Shown in pieces: positions 2,899-11,422 of a stretch of 11,509 nt of DNA (positions are counted from its first letter, which is position 1; each line of letters starts with the position of its first letter). The stretch covers positions 1 to 11,509 of the forward strand of contig JAJYAF010000036.1 in assembly GCA_021779655.1 (NCBI GenBank), read 5' to 3'. Source of the stretch: Pseudomonadota bacterium (GTDB lineage: Bacteria; Pseudomonadota; Alphaproteobacteria; Acetobacterales; Acetobacteraceae). The position numbers were made by a program, and so were the translations under genes. Below the pieces are notes generated by a model, which saw only the letters and a program-made list of their open reading frames with translations, did not search any database and had not been told where the DNA came from.

Positions 2899-3076
2899 GG
2901 CCGCAGCCTCACACCGGACATATCAGCAAACCTCCGTCCGGCTGAACATGGCATGCACCGGGCCGCGCCGTCCACCTGCCGCGTTTCATATGCCCAGCCG
3001 GTTATGGAGTGCGGAACATAATAAGGTTCTGCAAAAGGGGAACTTTCGCAGTTCGTCGAACTTGTCTCAAATATTG

Positions 3077-3096
3077 GATTACTTAAAGTGGTAATC
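3077..3096. promoter_or_regulatory. inverted repeat GATTAC-N8-GTAATC, possible operator
   Basis: A perfect 6-bp dyad (GATTAC at 3077-3082, GTAATC at 3091-3096) with an 8-bp spacer (TTAAAGTG) that itself contains TTAA. It lies about 64 bp before the start codon of the CtrA-like gene and just upstream of the TTGACT element. The placement suits an operator for autoregulation or for an unknown regulator, but this is inference. It does not fit the TTAA-N7-TTAA site of CtrA. Confidence 0.4.
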
Positions 3097-3106
3097 AAAT
3101 AAGTTA

Positions 3107-3136
3107 TTGACTTTGTTCTTGCTGTGGTTGTACTCC
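3107..3136 (+). promoter_or_regulatory. possible promoter of the CtrA-like regulator gene
   Basis: TTGACT at 3107-3112 is a good -35 match. The best partner at 18 bp is TACTCC (3131-3136), a poor -10 hexamer, and the AT-rich TATTAA at 3138 is too far. The -35 half is the only strong part, so confidence is low. Confidence 0.28.
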
Positions 3137-3159
3137 GTATTAATCTTACGGAGGCGGCA

Positions 3160-3906
3160 ATGAAAATTTTATCTTTTGCGACGTTTGTTAATAAAGGCGA
3201 CTTACTGGTGCCTTACCTTCGGTCGAAGCTGGCTATCGTCGATGAAACAAATGATAGCGAGGAAGCCCTCGACCTCATCAAATTTTACGAATACGACGCT
3301 GTTTTGCTGCGTCTGTCGGAAGAACGCCCAAGCGAAGTGGAACTTATCCGTAAACTGCGGCTCGCAAAGGTGCGGGCACCCATCATCGTCATTGCGCGTT
3401 CAATGACGGAAATAGCCAGATTGCGAATTTTGCAGGCCGGGGCGGATGATCTTATCGTAAACGCCCTTTCGCACGAAGAAGTCTTCATGAAAATTCAGAA
3501 TCTTATCCGTCGCAGCCGAGGGTTTCAGGAAAACTCGCTCTGGATCGGAGCCGTCGAGATCAATATGAACGCGAAAAAGATTTTCGCGAAAGGCAAGCCG
3601 GTCATGCTAACGAAAAAGGAATATCAGATCGCCGAGATCCTGGCCCTTCGCAAAGGAGCCGTGTTGAGCAAGGAAGCGATTCTCGATCACCTCTATGGGG
3701 GGCTGGATGAGCCAAATCCCAAAATTATCGACGTATTCATTTGTAAGATCCGGAAAAAATTGCAGTCCATGGGCGTCGACGACTTCATTGAGACCAACTG
3801 GGGACGAGGCTATATGGTGATCGATCATCGGCAGGACGTACCGGCTGCTCAATCCTCAGGATTGAACATGTCCGTCGATGACGTAAAGGCCAGACAAATC
3901 GCATGA
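3160..3906 (+). CDS. CtrA-like OmpR-family response regulator with a degenerate receiver domain
   Basis: A protein of 248 residues. The ATG at 3160 is chosen because GGAGG (3150-3154) sits 5 nt upstream; a longer frame from GTG 3124 would read through that site. The winged-helix domain (about 125-225) is very close to CtrA: LTKKEYQIAEILALRKGAVLS, HLYGGLDEP, KIIDVFICKIRKKL and NWGRGY. The receiver (1-120) aligns without gaps to Caulobacter CtrA as I recall it, but the acidic pair D8/D9 is T8/F9, the phospho-acceptor D51 is R51, and the conserved lysine K101 is N101. It cannot be phosphorylated by the usual Asp chemistry, so it is a pseudo-receiver paralogue rather than CtrA itself. It may act constitutively, by binding a partner, or by competing at CtrA-type sites. 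GC content (about 42-50% in sampled lines) is well below its neighbours. The C-terminal tail after the winged helix is short and unrecognised. No kinase gene is adjacent. Confidence 0.93.
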   Translation: MKILSFATFVNKGDLLVPYLRSKLAIVDETNDSEEALDLIKFYEYDAVLLRLSEERPSEVELIRKLRLAKVRAPIIVIARSMTEIARLRILQAGADDLIVNALSHEEVFMKIQNLIRRSRGFQENSLWIGAVEINMNAKKIFAKGKPVMLTKKEYQIAEILALRKGAVLSKEAILDHLYGGLDEPNPKIIDVFICKIRKKLQSMGVDDFIETNWGRGYMVIDHRQDVPAAQSSGLNMSVDDVKARQIA

Positions 3907-3908
3907 AA

Positions 3909-3938
3909 TATGGGGCGCTTAAGTATGGGGCGCTTAAG
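3909..3938 (+). repeat. 15-bp tandem direct repeat (two units)
   Basis: TATGGGGCGCTTAAG occurs twice exactly (3909-3923 and 3924-3938) and begins a third time (TATG, 3939-3942). It starts 3 bp after the stop codon of the CtrA-like gene. Each unit holds the palindrome CTTAAG. It may be replication slippage or a pair of binding sites. Confidence 0.85.
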
Positions 3939-4061
3939 TATGCGCTGGGATCGCCGGTCCGGTGCGGGCCGCGCTGGGGCGGCCGCCCTGGCAGAGGGTG
4001 GAAGGCGATCGGGACCCGAGAGGAGCGTGCAAAGATCCTTCCGTTGCAAGCGCCAATCCGT

Positions 4062-4809
4062 TCATTCGACGATCTCGGGCAGAGCAGGGGACGCGCCGCG
4101 CAAGGGACGGCGGAATATGCCGGCGCAGGCTACGCCCGCGAGCACCACGCCACCGCCAACCATATGGTATAAACGTACAGGCTCCCCTAGCAGGACGATC
4201 GCCCCCAAGCGCGGTGAAGACCGGCAGCAGGTTCATGAAGACAGCGCAGCGGCTCGGTCCTAGGATATGGACACCACGGACCCAGAGAAAAGGAAGAACC
4301 ACCGAGGCCAGTCCACCCGCATAACCGACGAGCGGCAGGGTGCCGGCGTTCAGTGAGCGCAGCGGCGCAGGTGTCGCTAACAATGCGGGGAACATGATCA
4401 CCAGGGCGCAAAGCGCTTGCATGTAGGTTGATTGCCAGCCGACGACGGGCAGATTCCAGCGCTTCAGCAACACACCGTAAAGCGCATAGACCAGCGCGGA
4501 CAACAACATCAATGGGTCCCCGAAATGAACGCCATTGCGTGCGAGCGCTGCCGGGTCGCCCGCGCTGACCAGATAGAGCAACCCGAGCAGCGACAGGATA
4601 CCGCCGCCTACCATTCCGACAGTCGGTGTCTCCTTCAGCAGGGGAGCACTCAGCGCCACGGTGAGCAGCGGCGTCAATGCCGTGAATACAGCCATGTTCC
4701 TCGCCGTGATGCTTTCCGCGGCCAGATAAGACAGACATTGGAACAGGCACATCGCTAGAAAGCCAAAATGCCTTGACGAAATCGAGTATAAGGGTAACGA
4801 TGCCTTCAA
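4062..4809 (-). pseudogene. EamA/DMT-family transporter remnant (5'-truncated and frameshifted)
   Basis: The minus-strand frame encodes a typical EamA membrane protein: FQCLSYLAAESITARNMAVF, ALTPLLTVALSAPLLKE, then GGGILSLLGLLYLVSAGD and further hydrophobic helices up to NLLPVFTALG. Two defects are visible. First, about 70 N-terminal residues (the first two helices of the usual ten) are missing; an in-frame stop lies just upstream of 4809 and the neighbouring DNA is the P450 5' end. Second, a run of five G on the coding strand (4202-4206) shifts the frame. With four G the protein continues as ALGAIVLLGEP, then HMVGGGVVLAGVACAGIF, and stops at 4062, as expected for EamA. Unshifted, the frame runs on to 3934 with a non-homologous tail. 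The homopolymer could be a sequencing error, but the N-terminal loss cannot. The family exports small metabolites; no substrate can be assigned. Confidence 0.85.
4773..4800 (+). promoter_or_regulatory. possible promoter of the P450 gene
   Basis: TTGACG (4773-4778) with TAACGA (4795-4800) at 16 bp, about 50 bp before the P450 start codon. The -10 match is weak. A better -10-like TATAAG at 4787 has no -35 at proper distance. It lies in the junction region next to the truncated transporter. Confidence 0.27.
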
Positions 4810-4849
4810 AGCGCGTAAGTCGCAATTTCAAGCCAAGGGAAGAAATGTG

Positions 4850-6121
4850 ATGGATGGCATGGTAAATCCCGTAGACCAAAGGGTTTTGGATCGGATAAAA
4901 TCGGTCCCGATCGCCGACCTCGACGTGGCCGATACCGAGATCTTCCGCAGCGATGCGGTATTTACCGCGTTTGAACGGTTGCGGCGCGAGGACCCGATAC
5001 ATTATTGCACGAACAATAAACTTTATGGTCCCTATTGGTCGATCACGAAATTCAAGGACATCATCGCCGTAGAGACCAAGCCGCTGATTTTTTCATCGGA
5101 GCTCAACGGAACCACCATTGAGGATGGTTTGCTTGGTCTTGGGACGCCGATGTTCATCGCCATGGACCCGCCCAAGCATGACATGCAGCGCATGGCGGTG
5201 AGTCCCGCGCTTTCCCCCGAAAATCTGGCAACGTTGGAAGCCGGGATTCGCCAGCGAACCGAGGCTGTTCTGGATTCTCTGCCCGTTGGCGAGACCTTCG
5301 ACTGGGTCGATCGCGTCTCGATTGAGCTTACCACCCAAATGCTGGCGATCATTTTCGACTTTCCCTGGGAAGACCGTCGGAAGCTGACGCGATGGTCGGA
5401 AGTTGCGTCGGCGAGCCACGAATCGGGATCGACGGTCGTTGAGTCGCAAGAGGCCAGGATGGCGGAGCTTGGGGAATGTCTGGCTTATTTTACCAGGCTC
5501 TGGAACGAACGGGTCAATGGGCCGCCCCGCTTCGATTTGGTGTCGATGCTGGCGCATTCGCCGGCCACGCGGAACATGCCGCCGATGGAGTATCTGGGAA
5601 ATTTGCTTCTGTTGATCGTGGGAGGCAACGATACCACCCGCAACACGATGTCGGGGAGCGTTCTTGCGTTGAACCGCAACCCCGATGAATACCGGAAGCT
5701 GTGCGCCAAGCCGGCTCTGGTTCCGTCGCTGGTGTCCGAAAGCATCCGGTGGCAGACCCCGCTTACGCATATGCGCCGCACCGCCTCGGAGGATACGACG
5801 CTCGGTGAAAAGCAGATCCGCAAGGGCGATAAGGTCATCATGTGGTATCTGTCCGGAAACCGTGATTCCGAGGTGATCGAGAACCCGGATTCTTTCATCA
5901 TCGACCGTGCCAACCCGAGACAGCATTTATCGTTCGGCTTTGGTATCCATCGCTGCCTGGGCAATCGCCTGGCGGAAATGCAGCTCAGGATTCTCTGGGA
6001 AGAAGCGCTCAAGCGCTGGAACAAGCCGATGCAGATCGAGGTCGTCGGCACGCCTGAGCCGACCGATGTCAGCATCGCCTTCCGTGGCTTCAAGGCCCTG
6101 CCCGTTCGCATTAGTGCCTGA
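4850..6121 (+). CDS. CYP153-family cytochrome P450 (alkane / fatty-acid terminal hydroxylase)
   Basis: A complete protein of 423 residues, the usual length for CYP153. Diagnostic motifs are the I-helix GGNDTTRN (258-265), the ExxR motif ESIR (E297, R300) and the heme loop FGFGIHRCLG with the ligand C369. Family-specific stretches match CYP153A6 as I recall it: FIAMDPPKHD, VSIELTTQMLA, SESIRWQTPLTHMRR, VIMWYLSGNRD and the C-terminal LPVRISA. CYP153 enzymes are soluble class I P450s that insert oxygen at the terminal carbon of medium-chain alkanes or fatty acids, using a [2Fe-2S] ferredoxin and its reductase. The start is ATG 4850, with AAGGGA 9 nt upstream; GTG 4847 and ATG 4859 are alternatives. 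The stop codon's last base is the first base of repeat copy 1. The ferredoxin gene follows on the same strand. Chain-length preference cannot be read from sequence alone. Confidence 0.95.
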   Translation: MDGMVNPVDQRVLDRIKSVPIADLDVADTEIFRSDAVFTAFERLRREDPIHYCTNNKLYGPYWSITKFKDIIAVETKPLIFSSELNGTTIEDGLLGLGTPMFIAMDPPKHDMQRMAVSPALSPENLATLEAGIRQRTEAVLDSLPVGETFDWVDRVSIELTTQMLAIIFDFPWEDRRKLTRWSEVASASHESGSTVVESQEARMAELGECLAYFTRLWNERVNGPPRFDLVSMLAHSPATRNMPPMEYLGNLLLLIVGGNDTTRNTMSGSVLALNRNPDEYRKLCAKPALVPSLVSESIRWQTPLTHMRRTASEDTTLGEKQIRKGDKVIMWYLSGNRDSEVIENPDSFIIDRANPRQHLSFGFGIHRCLGNRLAEMQLRILWEEALKRWNKPMQIEVVGTPEPTDVSIAFRGFKALPVRISA

Positions 6122-6243
6122 TACCAATCCGCGAAAACGCGGATTGGTATGCGCGCGGGGTTGGTTGGGCGGCCGCGCGAAGTCAAAGCCTTATGCCAGC
6201 CTGCCACTTGTTAGGAAGAATCAATCAATTGGCGGGCTGGTAT
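6121..6243 (+). repeat. structured intergenic repeat, copy 1 (three hairpins)
   Basis: A 123-bp element, about 90% identical to the copy at 6706. It starts with a perfect 13-bp stem, ATACCAATCCGCG / CGCGGATTGGTAT, around an AAAA loop (6121-6150). A GC stem follows (CGCGCGG 6152-6158 with CCGCGCG 6173-6179). The last is a 14-bp stem with two G-T wobbles (6193-6206 with 6230-6243). The two ends form an imperfect terminal inverted repeat (ATACCAATCCGC against ATACCAGCCCGC). It fills most of the gap between P450 and ferredoxin and overlaps the P450 stop codon by one base. It resembles a REP/BIME or MITE-like element; I do not recognise it as a named family. Confidence 0.9.
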
Positions 6244-6291
6244 GAAGAAGGTCGGGACAGGCTCGGGTCGTTGCAAAGGATGCGTCGTCAT

Positions 6292-6612
6292 ATGGTCAAA
6301 GTAGTTTTTATCGATTATCAAAATGTCGCACGCGCCGTCGATGCCGCGGAAGGCGAATCGCTGAAAGACGCCGCCATTAAAAACCTGGTGCCGGGAATTG
6401 ATGCCGACTGTGGCGGCAATTGTGCTTGCGCCACCTGCCGTGTTGATGTCGATCCGGAATGGCTAAGCAAGCTGCCGTCTGTAAGTGCGGACGAAAAAGC
6501 CCTGCTCGCCATCGTTGACTCGGTCAAACCCAACTCGCGCCTCGCATGCCAGATCAAAGCACGCCCTGAGTTGAACGGGATCACCGTCCATACTCCCATG
6601 GGGCAACATTGA
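6292..6612 (+). CDS. adrenodoxin-type [2Fe-2S] ferredoxin, electron donor to the P450
   Basis: A protein of 106 residues with the plant/adrenodoxin-type cluster motif C-x5-C-x2-C (C40, C46, C49) and the fourth ligand C86 in RLACQI, which gives the spacing of the adrenodoxin/putidaredoxin group; C44 is an extra cysteine. The start MVKVVFIDYQ (ATG 6292) fits the family's N-terminus, with AAGGA (6276-6280) 11 nt upstream; ATG 6280 is in frame but overlaps that site. It lies 170 bp after the P450 on the same strand, the usual partner of CYP153, and would carry single electrons from a ferredoxin reductase to the P450. The gap is largely repeat copy 1, so expression relative to the P450 may be altered by its hairpins. 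No ferredoxin reductase gene is in the window. Confidence 0.95.
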   Translation: MVKVVFIDYQNVARAVDAAEGESLKDAAIKNLVPGIDADCGGNCACATCRVDVDPEWLSKLPSVSADEKALLAIVDSVKPNSRLACQIKARPELNGITVHTPMGQH

Positions 6613-6705
6613 TAGGGCCGGCTGAAATGCCCGAAGACAAAGTTAGCCGCAACAGGGGCTGGACGAGCTTGCCAAGCTGAAGAGGGAAGCCCCGGCCGGC
6701 AGCGT

Positions 6706-6830
6706 ATACCAATCCGCGAAAACGCGGATTGGTATGCGCGCGGGGTTGGCGGGGCGGCCGCGCGCGAAATCAAAGCCTTATGCCAGCCGGCCACCTGTCT
6801 GATAGAGTCAATGAATTGGCGGGCTGGTAT
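6706..6830 (+). repeat. structured intergenic repeat, copy 2 (three hairpins)
   Basis: A 125-bp element in the same orientation as copy 1. The first 44 bases are identical to copy 1, including the 13-bp stem with AAAA loop (6706-6735). The middle stem is longer here (GCGCGCGG 6736-6743 with CCGCGCGC 6758-6765). The third stem pairs 6780-6793 with 6817-6830; it has one G-G mismatch where copy 1 has a T-G wobble. The element lies between the convergent ferredoxin and dehydrogenase genes, where its hairpins could also end transcription. Confidence 0.9.
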
Positions 6831-6895
6831 TATGGCGGCGACCAAGCGTCGTACCGTCGCAACGTAACCGAGAAATTTGCCGGGGGACGGCGGTT

Positions 6896-7687
6896 TCAGA
6901 GCGAGTCGACCACCCCGCCATCCACGCGTAACGCCGCGCCGGTTGTGGCGGAGGCGAGGGGCGAGGCGACATAGACCACCATATTCGCCACTTCCTCAAC
7001 CGTGGCGGCGCGTCCGATGATGGAACTTGGCCGCGCCGCACGTGCGAATTCATCGGCAAGGACCTCGGCGGACTTCCCGGTTTTTACCATCGCCTCCACG
7101 AGCATTGCCCTGAAGCCGTCGGTCAGGGTCGGGCCTGGAAGGACCGAGTTTACCGTAACACCCGTGCCCGCCATCCGCTTGGCCAAGCCGCGCGCCGTTG
7201 CGACATTGGAAATCTTACTCACGCCATAGTGGATTATGTCGGCTGGGATGTTGAACGCGGATTCCGAGGCAATGAAGATAACCCGCCCCCAGCTCCGCGT
7301 CTTCATGGCTGGAAGATAGGCACGGGCGAGACGTACACCGGCCATGACGTTTACCTGCCAATGACGCTCCCAAATACCGTCATCCGCTTCGAAGAAATCA
7401 ATCGGCTGAAAAATCCCCGCATTGTTGACGAGAATATCCACCTGGGGAATTTTCCGTATCAGCTCGGCGCAGCCTTGTGCGCTGGCAAGGTCGGCGGCCG
7501 CGCCGACGATTTCGGCTCCGGAACAATCACCGCGTAGCCTGGCCACCGCCGCTTCCACGCTCTCGTTGCTCCGCCCGTTCACGATCACCGCCGCGCCGGC
7601 CTGGGCCAAGCCTTTGGCGATGCCAAAGCCGATGCCTGCGGTCGAACCGGTGATCAACGCTGTTTTGCCGGTCAGGTCTATGCGCAT
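6896..7687 (-). CDS. short-chain dehydrogenase/reductase (SDR), NAD(P)-dependent
   Basis: A protein of 263 residues, typical of classical SDRs. It has the nucleotide-binding motif TGSTAGIG (13-20), NNAG (88-91) and the catalytic set N113, S141, Y154 and K158 (S-x12-Y-x3-K). NGRS after the second strand (R39) suggests NADP(H) preference. The C-terminus (VANMVVYVASPLASATTGAALRVDGG) is the usual SDR end. The start is ATG 7687 with GGGAG about 6 nt upstream; ATG 7690 is possible and a TTG at 7717 is less likely. It would oxidise or reduce an alcohol/ketone or 3-oxoacyl substrate in the cytoplasm; the substrate is unknown. A role on alcohols made by the nearby P450 is conceivable, but the gene lies on the opposite strand with its own promoter. 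Confidence 0.95.
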   Translation of the reverse strand: MRIDLTGKTALITGSTAGIGFGIAKGLAQAGAAVIVNGRSNESVEAAVARLRGDCSGAEIVGAAADLASAQGCAELIRKIPQVDILVNNAGIFQPIDFFEADDGIWERHWQVNVMAGVRLARAYLPAMKTRSWGRVIFIASESAFNIPADIIHYGVSKISNVATARGLAKRMAGTGVTVNSVLPGPTLTDGFRAMLVEAMVKTGKSAEVLADEFARAARPSSIIGRAATVEEVANMVVYVASPLASATTGAALRVDGGVVDSL

Positions 7688-7746
7688 CATCCTCTCCCGA
7701 AAAAATGACGCTGACAAGAGTGTCCAGTTTCCGAAAGGTGATAAAA

Positions 7747-7872: not shown

Positions 7873-10800
7873 TTACGCGGCCTCTCGGCACGCATCGGTT
7901 CTGGGCAAGATCGCGCCATCGCAGGCGCGACGCACGATGATCGCCTCTTCACCCGTTCCGATATGGTCCGCAACGGAGAAGGAGAACATGCAATGCCCCC
8001 TTCCGAGACGCGCCGCCGCGAGGTCCCCGCGGTAATGGCAGGCAAGAGCGGTTCCCAAAACCATGTCCCCCAGGCAAATCTCCACGAGCACCGGAAAATC
8101 GGGCTGGGCTTCATCCCATGCCCATCCAACCACCTGGCTGTTGTCCACGCGTTCCACATACCCGCGCAACCCGCCGGGGGTAATGGCAAGAGCCGAAATC
8201 ACCGGCATAAGGGCCGCTTCCAGTTCCGGGCCGGCCTCGGGGCGTGGCGCGCATAGCCGCAATTCATCGGGCGTGATGTGATCGGGAAACAAAAGTTGGA
8301 ATTCAGCGGCGTTGTGAAACTGCGCGCGCAAGCCGGGCGCATCGGCAAAGCTTTCCGCCCACTGTCCGTTGGCGAGCACGCAATCATGCGTCTCGAACTC
8401 TATCGCGTAATACGCGATCGTTTCAGCCGCGTGTTCCTGAGTGACGGTAACGCCGTTGACAAGGTTGCGGGCGAGCACGAAAACCTCGCCCACCAGAACC
8501 GCATGGCCGGGCGAAACGTACAAAGCCTCGGCCGGCATGTTCGGTCCAAGCGCGCCCCGCGCAATCCGAACCGGCAGCCGGTCGGCGGAAAGAAAACGCG
8601 ATGAATAACTCTGGCGGCCGACCCATTTGACCGGCTGAAAGCCTTTGAAACGCGTGAGAACGATATCGCCCGGTCGCAATTCCTCAACCAGACATTCGCC
8701 CGAACGGGTCAGCACCCGCGTTCCGGCAAGGTAGCAGATGGTAAGCTCGGTTCCGGCGGCCACGGTTTGCATATGCACGGCGGTGACGCCGAGAAGATCG
8801 AGCGTTTCCCTGCCGGCGCCGGCGGCCAGCACGATCCCGCTGCCGGAAACATAGCTTTCGCTGGTCGCGGTAAATCCATCCAGAATGATCGTATCGCCGG
8901 CGGCGAAGCCGGAAATCGCCTGGCCCGAGGCAAGGCCGCCGCTATCGCCTTCAACCAGCCACGAGGCTCCGGCATCGATAACGATCGACTGGAACGAGAC
9001 AAATTCGGTGCCGACACCGGAGACGGTGCCTTTGACAGCGCTGCTGGCAAGTTCCAGCGCATTGGTGCCCTTCCCGCCGGAGACGGTGCCGATGAACACC
9101 CCGCCGGCCTCATCGATCAGACGATCGTTGTTATTACCAAAGGCAACCGCCGTGCCGCTATTGCCAAGCGTGCTGGCGATGGTGCCCACGTTGAAGATGG
9201 TATTGTTTCCATAAGGCCCGGTGCCAAGAGCGATGCCGCCCCCGATGACCGTGCCCAGATTGGTGAAGCTCACCGGCCCGCCAAGTTGCAGCGCCTTCGC
9301 CGAGCTTTCGATGATTCCACCGGCGAAATTGGTGATTGCTCCCTCACCGAGGTAGGCGCCTTCGGCGGAACCGCCGCTGATGACGGCATAATTCAGCGCC
9401 GTGCCGTAATATTGGTCGAAGGCAAAGCCTTTGCTGCCCGCGATCAGCGCCGTCCGGTCGGTTGCCGATCCGTTGATGGCGACGCCCGTGCCGACATAAA
9501 CCGCATTGAAAGCCACGGTGCCGACCTGGACCGTGCCGAAATTTTGAAATCGCGTCGGGCTGGGCGGCGTTTGGACGCCGTTGACGAACTGGGAGCCGCC
9601 GATAGTCACCCCATCGATAAATGCGCTTTGATCCGCCTGGGTGCCGTTGAGAAGGGTACCGCCGTTCAGAAGCTCGGCTTTCGCGCCGATGGTGCCGTAA
9701 TTGACGATTTCGCTATTGCCGGTAAGGGTGTGGAAAAATCCTTTTCCGATATAAACCCCGGAACCCGGGCCGGAGATCAACGCGGTCGTGTCGTTACTGC
9801 CGCCGTTGACAACCGTTCCAGCTCCGATGATATCAACGCCTGTGCCGATGAGGGGCGTGCCGAATCCCGTGGACTGAATCGTGCCCGAATTCAAAACCGT
9901 CGCGCCGATCCCGTATTCGTAAATTCCTGCCACGCCACCGGTGACAAGGCCGCGATTCTCGAATGTCCCAAGCGTCGTCGCGGGACCGGTGCCGGTTACA
10001 TAAAACCCGGAGGCAGAACCGCCTCCGGCCAAGGTGCCGGAGTTGATGACCGTGCTTTGTCCGGTGAGGCTGCCTCGCGTTACCGCCAGGCCGTTATCTG
10101 CGCCCGAGATCGTTCCGCTGTTGAGCACCGTCGCCGCCGCGTTGCCGAGCACGATCCCGTCGCCATGACCCGAGATGAGACCGCTGCCGCTGTTCGAGAC
10201 GAAAACATTGGGCGACTGCTCCAGGTTGAGACCAGCCTCATGCGCTCCCGATGTCGCCGCGGATCCAAATCCGATAATGGTGCCGGCATTGATGAGGCTC
10301 GCGGCCGCGCCCTTGATGTAAACCCCGGCATCGTAACCGGCAATCGTGCCTCCGGCCTGGTTGGTCACCTGGCCGCCGGCGGCAAGATAAATCGCGTCGG
10401 CGTTACTGCTCGTGGCCGTGATATGTCCGGAATTGTTCACGGTTACCGCAAAGCTTTCCTTGGCCGCCGTGGAAATGCCATAGCCGCCGGTTAGCGTACC
10501 GTGGTTGTTAATATTGGCCCCGGCGGCAAGATAAATGGCCGCGGCGCCGCTTGCCTGCACAAGGCCGGAATTGTAAATGCTGCCGCTGCCGCCGAAAAAG
10601 ATCGCGGAATACGTGCCTTCCCCGATAAGGGTTCCCTGGTTGTTGATGCTGGAACTAACGCTATAGCCCGTTACAACCGCGTTATACCCGATGATCGAGC
10701 CGCCGGCCTCGTTCTCAACCACGCCTTGCGCCTGAAGTTCCACGCCCGCGCCGCCAAGGGAAACTCCGCTTGGGGACATGAAATGGCGCGCGCTGGCTTC

Positions 10801-11301
10801 GATAAGCCCGCTATTTTGCACCGTGGCGGCGGTGGTGGCGAAGACGCCGAAATCGGTCGCGGCGATGGTTCCGGCGTTATCGACGCTGCCAGCGTCAACC
10901 AGCCGGACGCAATAAATACCGCTGATAACGCCTGTACTGGCGTTGCTGACAGTGCCACCCTTTGTCAGCCAGACGCCGGTGGAGACATAAGTCGGATTCG
11001 TGTCACCTGCCGCGACGGCAACGGAAAAACTACCGCCCGTGCCGGAAATCGTCCCTGCATTCACGATCCGCGCGCTTTGGTAAACCGAAACGACACCGAA
11101 TTCCAGGCTCGATATCAAGCCGGTGTTATGGACATATCCACCTTCGCTCAACCTCACGCCGCCGTGGAAATCACCCACGTGAGCAGAGGAAACCGTTGCC
11201 AAGACGGTTCCTGAATTGATGACCGACCCGGCCGAGCCGAGGCTGATTCCGTCATATGAGCCAATGGTCAGACCCGTATTGACCACGGTGACGCCCGGCA
11301 T
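7873..11301 (-). CDS. long beta-solenoid repeat protein with Hint (Hedgehog/intein) domain
   Basis: A protein of 1142 residues. The start is ATG 11301 (MPGVTVVNTG), with AGGAGGA (11314-11308) 6 nt upstream; the in-frame extension to 11391 would read through that site. Residues 1 to about 780 hold roughly 28 rungs of the type 'VxNSGTIxG' (for example VINSGTVLA, INNHGTLTG, VLNSGTISG), as in right-handed beta-helix passenger domains. A linker ends at TELTI, and the Hint domain begins at C856 (CYLAGTRVLT) with VEELRPGDIVLTR, the block SPGHAVLV (H933), LVNGVTV and HDCVLANG, matching the Hint_2 type. Residues 1047-1142 form a module (GYVERVDNSQVVGWAWDEAQ, HYRGDLAAARLG) that I recall from Acetobacteraceae surface-related proteins. 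No signal peptide and no autotransporter barrel are visible. It is likely a surface or secreted protein that may cut itself at C856; this is inference from the Hint family. Confidence 0.9.
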   Translation of the reverse strand: MPGVTVVNTGLTIGSYDGISLGSAGSVINSGTVLATVSSAHVGDFHGGVRLSEGGYVHNTGLISSLEFGVVSVYQSARIVNAGTISGTGGSFSVAVAAGDTNPTYVSTGVWLTKGGTVSNASTGVISGIYCVRLVDAGSVDNAGTIAATDFGVFATTAATVQNSGLIEASARHFMSPSGVSLGGAGVELQAQGVVENEAGGSIIGYNAVVTGYSVSSSINNQGTLIGEGTYSAIFFGGSGSIYNSGLVQASGAAAIYLAAGANINNHGTLTGGYGISTAAKESFAVTVNNSGHITATSSNADAIYLAAGGQVTNQAGGTIAGYDAGVYIKGAAASLINAGTIIGFGSAATSGAHEAGLNLEQSPNVFVSNSGSGLISGHGDGIVLGNAAATVLNSGTISGADNGLAVTRGSLTGQSTVINSGTLAGGGSASGFYVTGTGPATTLGTFENRGLVTGGVAGIYEYGIGATVLNSGTIQSTGFGTPLIGTGVDIIGAGTVVNGGSNDTTALISGPGSGVYIGKGFFHTLTGNSEIVNYGTIGAKAELLNGGTLLNGTQADQSAFIDGVTIGGSQFVNGVQTPPSPTRFQNFGTVQVGTVAFNAVYVGTGVAINGSATDRTALIAGSKGFAFDQYYGTALNYAVISGGSAEGAYLGEGAITNFAGGIIESSAKALQLGGPVSFTNLGTVIGGGIALGTGPYGNNTIFNVGTIASTLGNSGTAVAFGNNNDRLIDEAGGVFIGTVSGGKGTNALELASSAVKGTVSGVGTEFVSFQSIVIDAGASWLVEGDSGGLASGQAISGFAAGDTIILDGFTATSESYVSGSGIVLAAGAGRETLDLLGVTAVHMQTVAAGTELTICYLAGTRVLTRSGECLVEELRPGDIVLTRFKGFQPVKWVGRQSYSSRFLSADRLPVRIARGALGPNMPAEALYVSPGHAVLVGEVFVLARNLVNGVTVTQEHAAETIAYYAIEFETHDCVLANGQWAESFADAPGLRAQFHNAAEFQLLFPDHITPDELRLCAPRPEAGPELEAALMPVISALAITPGGLRGYVERVDNSQVVGWAWDEAQPDFPVLVEICLGDMVLGTALACHYRGDLAAARLGRGHCMFSFSVADHIGTGEEAIIVRRACDGAILPRTDACREAA

Positions 11302-11307
11302 GCCCGA

Positions 11308-11314
11308 TCCTCCT
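11308..11314 (-). promoter_or_regulatory. strong ribosome binding site AGGAGGA deciding the Hint-protein start
   Basis: AGGAGGA on the minus strand lies 6 nt before ATG 11301. It fixes the start at MPGVTVVNTG, since the 30-residue upstream extension from 11391 is unlike the repeat protein and would overlap this site. Confidence 0.85.
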
Positions 11315-11315
11315 G

Positions 11316-11335
11316 TTGATACGCTTTGATACGCT
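11316..11335 (-). promoter_or_regulatory. tandem motif AGCGTATCAA x2 in the Hint-protein leader
   Basis: Two perfect 10-bp direct repeats (11316-11325, 11326-11335) lie just upstream of the ribosome binding site. The same word occurs once upstream of the SDR promoter at 7791-7800. Spacing of one helical turn would place two protein sites on one face of the DNA. Function unknown. Confidence 0.45.
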
Positions 11336-11422
11336 CGGAACCTAGTTATCTCGATCCTGTTACAAGAAGCGGTCGGATCCGGCAATATCACTATTTACGG
11401 TCAAGTAACATTAGCTGCTGTG

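Follow-up and report, generated by a model that had tools for sequence, protein, structure and literature searches.

CtrA, the cell-cycle and motility regulator of Alphaproteobacteria, is the textbook output of a phosphorelay and is switched on by phosphorylation. In the Rhodospirillales cluster, the members of this relay are described as missing to a varying degree, chpT being absent and cckA present (PMC2877005; here and below, citations refer to excerpts of the papers), and another survey of Rhodospirillales genomes gives chpT, cckA and divL in 27-36% and ctrA, gcrA and ccrM in 72-82% (PMC8116508). The available excerpts of these two papers make no mention of a loss of the acceptor residue of CtrA. 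The laboratory allele CtrA-D51E is called phosphomimetic (PMC12186491, PMC6363796), and unphosphorylated CtrA has a role of its own in Rhodobacter capsulatus (PMC6363796). Aspartate-less receivers are a known class, in which Arg is rare at the Asp position (PMC4395418), and for two of its members, ChxR and HP1043, an activity that does not depend on phosphorylation is described (PMC3960148, PMC4395418).

The gene studied here lies in a stretch of 11,509 nucleotides, the whole of which is called the window. Its product shares with CtrA the domain order, the KIIDVFICK stretch, the dimer-face charges and the position in the tree, but it lacks the phosphorylation residues, scores well under the cut-off of the CtrA model, and belongs to a type for which CckA and ChpT were undetected in 17 of 17 genomes. 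Like ChxR, HP1043 and RitR, the aspartate-less regulators of the OmpR/PhoB family, it has a receiver without phospho-Asp; it differs from them in that the window type is a relay-controlled regulator apparently converted clade-wide, with the relay undetected. The residue of the D51E allele occurs naturally in 37 of the 123 rows of our family survey, whereas the window protein carries Arg51 and lacks the acidic pair, Ser79 and Lys101 as well. Since it is a CtrA without phospho-acceptor, of a type whose genomes show no detected relay, we class it as a CtrA variant, and the view we favour is that of a CtrA orthologue which would work like an aspartate-less response regulator. We put at roughly two in three the probability that it serves the Acidocella/Acidiphilium lineage as its CtrA, freed from the CckA-ChpT phosphorelay, pairing without phosphorylation and controlled by synthesis and proteolysis.

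The ctrA-type gene and its receiver

The features of the locus are as follows.

3107..3132, forward strand: TTGAC...GGTTGTA, a conserved element resembling a promoter, which starts 53 nt upstream of the start codon
3150..3154, forward strand: ribosome binding site GGAGG, five bases before the start codon
3160..3906, forward strand: ctrA-type gene for a 248-residue regulator of the OmpR/PhoB family, with a receiver lacking the phosphorylation residues
3160..3519, forward strand: receiver domain (a pseudo-receiver) spanning residues 1-120, with a predicted (beta-alpha)5 fold
3310..3312, forward strand: codon CGT for Arg51, replacing the phospho-acceptor Asp
3460..3462, forward strand: codon AAC for Asn101, at the position of the conserved Lys; 78 of the 120 best relatives carry Asp there
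3529..3825, forward strand: winged-helix DNA-binding domain, about residues 124-222
3724..3765, forward strand: region of the recognition helix, a helix being predicted for residues 189-202; nearly identical to that of Asp51 CtrA
3895..3903, forward strand: C-terminal QIA, a possible degradation signal

The reading frame is intact, from the ATG at 3160 to the stop codon at 3904-3906 (248 codons). A short direct repeat, ATGGGGCGCTTAAGT, is present in two copies at 3909-3940, immediately 3' of the stop codon. The Pfam search returned Trans_reg_C at 67.2 bits and Response_reg at 30.9 bits, the latter barely above its cut-off of 30.2. Among the NCBIfam models, CtrA scored highest, with 208.9 bits, under its cut-off of 350 bits; the name of this model points to Rhodobacterales, and the Glu51 CtrA proteins of Gluconobacter (329.7) and Acidomonas (309.6) also stay under the cut-off, which Falsiroseomonas alone (386.3) passed among the seven genomes scored. 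The CtrA-type winged-helix domain is present, and in the recognition-helix stretch IIDVFICK the window protein is identical to the Asp51 CtrA consensus.

The receiver could be aligned without gaps to the Asp51 CtrA of genome G064, with identities of 35% in the receiver and 60% in the DNA-binding part. Positions of the type of 8, 9, 51, 79, 98 and 101 form the phosphorylation site and the switch of receivers. The window protein shows the replacements D8->T, D9->F, D51->R, S79->A, F/Y98->L, K101->N and P102->A, so that the loss extends beyond the phospho-acceptor Asp51 and the acid pocket to the Thr/Ser switch and the aromatic position. A receiver fold without the phospho-Asp is indicated by Pfam, the residue survey and the predicted structure. 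A first-pass annotation of this DNA had assigned the protein to the CtrA family and had read T8/F9, R51 and N101 in the receiver of an intact, non-decaying gene. The gap-free alignment confirms these residues, and the assignment to the CtrA family and the intact frame without decay are supported as well.

A homologue search gave 859 matches, and residues were counted in the best 120 of them, some of which come from Acidocella aminolytica or Acidocella sp. (two loci of the R51 type, L002 and L004, are from Acidocella sp. and Acidiphilium sp.). Position 51 is Arg in 117 of these 120, His in two and Ser in one. The pair R51+D101 was found in 77, R51+E101 in 11 and R51+N101, the pair of the window protein, in 29. 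The charge of the pocket, Asp51-Lys101 in the Asp51 type, is therefore reversed to Arg51 with Asp/Glu101 in most relatives (88/120), and the bulky residue 80, beside the pocket, is Arg in 110/120. Among 11 orthologous pairs, dN/dS could be computed in 10 for each domain; it was 0.028-0.119 for the receiver and 0-0.060 for the DNA-binding part, several of the dS values being above 1. These low ratios indicate strong purifying selection on both domains. The first-pass annotation had stated that its reading would fall if the divergence were limited to this strain with signs of relaxed selection, or if the genome held no other ctrA and the orthologues kept the Asp. The change extends beyond one strain, dN/dS is low and the orthologues do not keep the Asp; it is confirmed that the loss of the phosphorylation residues is due neither to chance nor to decay in one strain. 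The other half of the pair, the lack of another ctrA, did turn out to apply in relatives (see below).

Other features of the window were noted in passing. An EamA-type transporter at 3934-5002 (reverse strand) seems, from a reading of the frames, to be divided between two frames that overlap, which would fit a frameshift close to its 3' end. Cytochrome P450, 2Fe-2S ferredoxin and short-chain dehydrogenase genes are clustered at 4847-7717. Two similar stretches, 6121-6243 and 6706-6830 (97% over 59 nt, 87% over 70 nt), carry the palindrome ATACCAATCCGCGAAAACGCGGATTGGTAT on both sides of the ferredoxin gene, the longest frame of which starts within the first stretch. The reverse strand encodes, at 7873-11391, a protein of 1172 residues with a Hint_2 domain at 885-1017, the remainder being repetitive by eye.

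Position 51 and the CckA-ChpT relay in the family

The family survey comprised one CtrA from each of 121 genomes, the second copy of G238 and the window protein, i.e. 123 rows; the genomes were a non-random set, made up of best matches, further chosen listed places and the seven genomes behind named loci. Position 51 is Asp in 67 rows, Glu in 37, Arg in 17, His in one and Ser in one; the last three groups are hereafter the R/S/H rows. In the first 80 genome loci, which include many from Rhodobacterales, the counts were 73 Asp, four Arg and three Glu, the Glu51 loci (L008, L012, L028) being those of Gluconobacter cerinus, G. cadivus and Acidomonas methanolica. The CtrA of Gluconobacter, Acidomonas and their kin, in 37 genomes of the family, naturally carries the Glu that makes the laboratory allele phosphomimetic.

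ChpT was scored as a match to PF10090 above cut-off in a frame of 173-468 residues; matches within longer frames, probably histidine kinases, were left uncounted, and those of G193, G238, G016 and G198 were barely under the cut-off. With this criterion, ChpT was found in 27/32 and 29/35, i.e. 56/67, Acetobacteraceae genomes with Asp51, and in none of the 37 Glu51 genomes or the 17 R/S/H genomes (0/54). The CckA query was chosen as the neighbour of recA in the four Asp51 genomes examined (4/4), with a flhB-like frame on its other side in two of them, these gene names coming from the reading of the frames. With a fragment limited to the kinase core, CckA could not be told apart from other hybrid kinases, and this query was dropped; the full-length G064 protein did allow the distinction and was used, at most 17 or 33 candidates being scored per genome. 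CckA reached 300 bits in 44/67 Asp51 genomes, four more of which lay at 282-299 (G147, G194, G263, G149), and in none of the 54 genomes without Asp51, where the best score was 269.8. Among the Asp51 genomes, 11/67 had no ChpT match, 23/67 no CckA at the threshold and 7/67 neither (G024, G045, G047, G062, G077, G081, G233). Since one third of the Asp51 genomes fail the CckA test, this test is weaker than that of ChpT, and with such misses among the Asp51 genomes, non-detection is due in part to sensitivity, to incomplete assemblies or to a loss of the relay with Asp51 kept. The CckA result obtained here differs from the presence of cckA in the CtrA-bearing Rhodospirillales cluster given in PMC2877005.

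The independent losses of the relay and of Asp51 are few: the test of independent pairs gave one supported pair (three over all branches) and no opposite pair, a number for which significance is out of reach. GcrA was detected in 17/17 R/S/H, 29/31 Glu51 and 31/32 Asp51 genomes, and FliF in 17/17, 24/31 and 28/32, respectively. FliF scored 65-74 bits in nine Acidocella-like genomes (G001, G002, G003, G074, G146, G193, G230, G262, G289) and, G152 (42) excepted, 117-158 bits in all other genomes with a match, which suggests a different flagellar set in the nine. SciP (PF06627) reached its cut-off in none of 80 genomes and is therefore uninformative on the R/S/H clade.

Descent, copy number and competing readings

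A small tree was built from 55 rows, including 14/19 R/S/H, 16/67 Asp51 and 7/37 Glu51 rows, and a large one from which the second G238 copy and the five phosphorylation columns were left out. In the small tree, the R/S/H clade is monophyletic (100/100) and joined to the CtrA group (93/89), and the window protein thus has its place within CtrA, apart from other OmpR-family regulators; the tree tool flagged long branches, and long-branch effects are possible. In the large tree, the 37 Glu51 rows form one group with three Asp51 rows (G024, G062, G077; SH-aLRT 87), and neither ChpT nor CckA was detected in any of its 40 members, for which the simplest reading would be that the relay was lost first and Asp51 later in the Glu lineage. 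In the R/S/H clade, both are already missing in every member tested.

Among 299 genomes from the family to which G003 belongs, 14 gave window-type matches (63-81% identity), as one copy per genome except in G238, and the next match after the window type, among the matches listed, had 48% identity. The 238 genomes that have a match to Gluconobacter CtrA at E <= 1e-60 include none of these 14. When G001-G004 were scored with the CtrA model, the window-type protein came first with 201-223 bits, ahead of regulators that reached at most 165 bits. G003 belongs to both sets; together with G001, G002 and G004, the 14 make 17 genomes of the Acidocella/Acidiphilium type, and no CtrA other than the window type was found in any of them (17/17). 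The window type is thus the CtrA of the clade, at least in these relatives; for the organism of the window itself, the same status would follow from their genomes. The second copy of G238 (L258, C6:730000-748000) carries Arg51, has 58% identity to the window protein and evolves faster, with a dN/dS against the first copy of 0.220 in the receiver and 0.080 in the DNA-binding part; a frame for a PAS-like histidine kinase lies about 2 kb upstream of it. In Falsiroseomonas (G006), two further CtrA-like paralogues (L104, L110) exist beside the Asp51 CtrA, with degenerate receivers having Ser and Glu at position 51, and both fall outside the window clade in the tree.

Several other readings could be proposed. 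An old CtrA-like paralogue or a foreign copy may have taken over and the native ctrA been lost, as the long stem branch of the R/S/H clade (4.77 in the small tree, 7.55 in the large one) and the existence of degenerate paralogues in Falsiroseomonas might suggest. The gene neighbourhood points the same way, since fliI-fliJ (named from the reading of the letters) lies beside ctrA in 3/5 Asp51/Glu51 loci (G005, G013, G149) and in 0/12 R/S/H loci, the window included; it was not in the stretches retrieved for G064 and G121 either. Since synteny gave no proof, the basis for orthology is the tree, together with mutual exclusion. Such a displacement we hold to be unlikely: the clade sits within the CtrA group, apart from L104 and L110, long branches having been flagged there, and the 14 genomes hold one copy each, G238 excepted. 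The first-pass annotation had instead proposed a paralogue that blocks the sites of a normal CtrA. A retained DNA-binding part without phosphorylation residues would suit such an inhibitor, but there was no normal CtrA beside it in the 17 relatives' genomes, which makes this idea very improbable; the family, the lost residues and the absence of decay are what stands of the earlier interpretation.

That all phosphorylation residues are missing, and that the second G238 copy evolves faster in its receiver, would also be expected of a relic decaying under relaxed selection, a reading that we find scarcely credible in view of the low dN/dS of the orthologous pairs, even with some dS above 1, and of the promoter element conserved in 18/19 R/S/H rows. 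More room is left for a pseudo-receiver that senses another input, which might be redox, the binding of a ligand or of a partner protein, or another modification such as arginine phosphorylation of R51, although we regard this as rather improbable. The strong conservation of the receiver, with the clade-fixed residues E84 and N114 (19/19 rows), R87, L88 and S104, would be in agreement with it, and a survey that counts 63 receivers in which Arg takes the place of the Asp speculates on arginine phosphorylation (PMC4395418); on the other hand, His or Ser occupies position 51 in 3/120 of the best relatives, and no partner or ligand was seen, in what was not a systematic search.

Retained surfaces, proposed control of the protein and significance

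The reading of a CtrA freed from its relay supposes that the receiver still pairs. The charges of the alpha4-beta5-alpha5 face, which we take to be those pairing across the OmpR/PhoB dimer face, are kept in the 19 R/S/H rows: R87 in 19, D96 in 19, D97 in 18, E107 in 19, K/R111 in 19 and R118 in 19; position 87 is Lys in most of the other rows. AlphaFold2, run with 69 sequences (57 of the 120 listed relatives and 12 locus translations), predicted a complete receiver fold and a winged helix with a mean pLDDT of 82.1 and a pTM of 0.56, the tail from residue 225 being of low confidence.

As for the control of the protein level, a pattern search found TTGAC...GGTTGTA at 53-54 nt upstream of the start in the 18 R/S/H rows mentioned above and in none of three controls (G064, G013, G005). 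In G030, the one miss, the element is visible and is cut by the start codon assumed. A generic sigma-70 scan of 2900-4100 called no promoter, this element included, and Rfam gave no match within the window. Of the 120 best relatives, at least 108 have Ala as their last residue, as do 14/19 R/S/H rows; four of the 19 end in GT, and Ala is thus not universal. Caulobacter CtrA was stabilised by the replacement of its last three residues (PMC12186491). Together, the promoter element and the C-terminus lead us to infer that synthesis and proteolysis would control the protein.

Candidate targets were sought by scanning G238, G289 and G003 for TTAA-N{4,10}-TTAA. In G238, N7 was the commonest spacing (6 of 23 matches) and formed no clear peak, and none was seen among the matches listed for G289 and G003. 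The flagellar regions of 13 R-type genomes gave 31 one-mismatch matches at N7 against 14-34 at other spacings; the corresponding numbers were 4 against 0-2 in four Asp51 regions and 15 against 7-17 in three Glu51 regions. No TTAA-N7-TTAA is present within the window, so that a clear enrichment of CtrA boxes was found neither there nor in the genome scan or the R-type flagellar regions. The ctrA gene lies about 18 kb from fliF in G003 and G230, and flagellar genes are CtrA-controlled in all the orders studied (PMC8116508); a control of motility by the window-type CtrA is therefore plausible, although the scans showed no clear enrichment of the box.

Taken together, what can be read directly in the sequences is a pocket dismantled at D8, D9, D51, S79 and K101, an Arg51 that is nearly fixed, an apparently sole CtrA, and genomes in which neither ChpT nor a recognisable CckA was found. 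The CtrA freed from the relay would work as follows: the receiver, still folded, would pair through its alpha4-beta5-alpha5 face without phosphorylation, and the presence of the protein would suffice for binding to its sites, so that the amount made and degraded would set how active it is. Arg51 with Asp/Glu101 may lock the pocket in one state. At the level of the family, we lean towards the view that the relay was dismantled at least twice while CtrA was kept, and that the regulator was freed from phosphorylation by two chemical routes, one through Glu51 in the acetic acid bacteria and the other through the reversal of the Asp51/Lys101 ion pair, to Arg51 with mostly Asp, Glu or Asn at 101, in the acidophiles.

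The open-licence literature searched yielded no report that CtrA has lost its acceptor residue in this family. Aspartate-less receivers being a known class, what is new, as far as these searches show, is the clade-wide use of one by CtrA with the relay undetected. Such a loss of the acceptor in CtrA could explain the relay called "degenerate" in Rhodospirillales, and lineages that have CtrA, GcrA and FliF but neither the acceptor nor ChpT would make it testable which functions of CtrA need phosphorylation.
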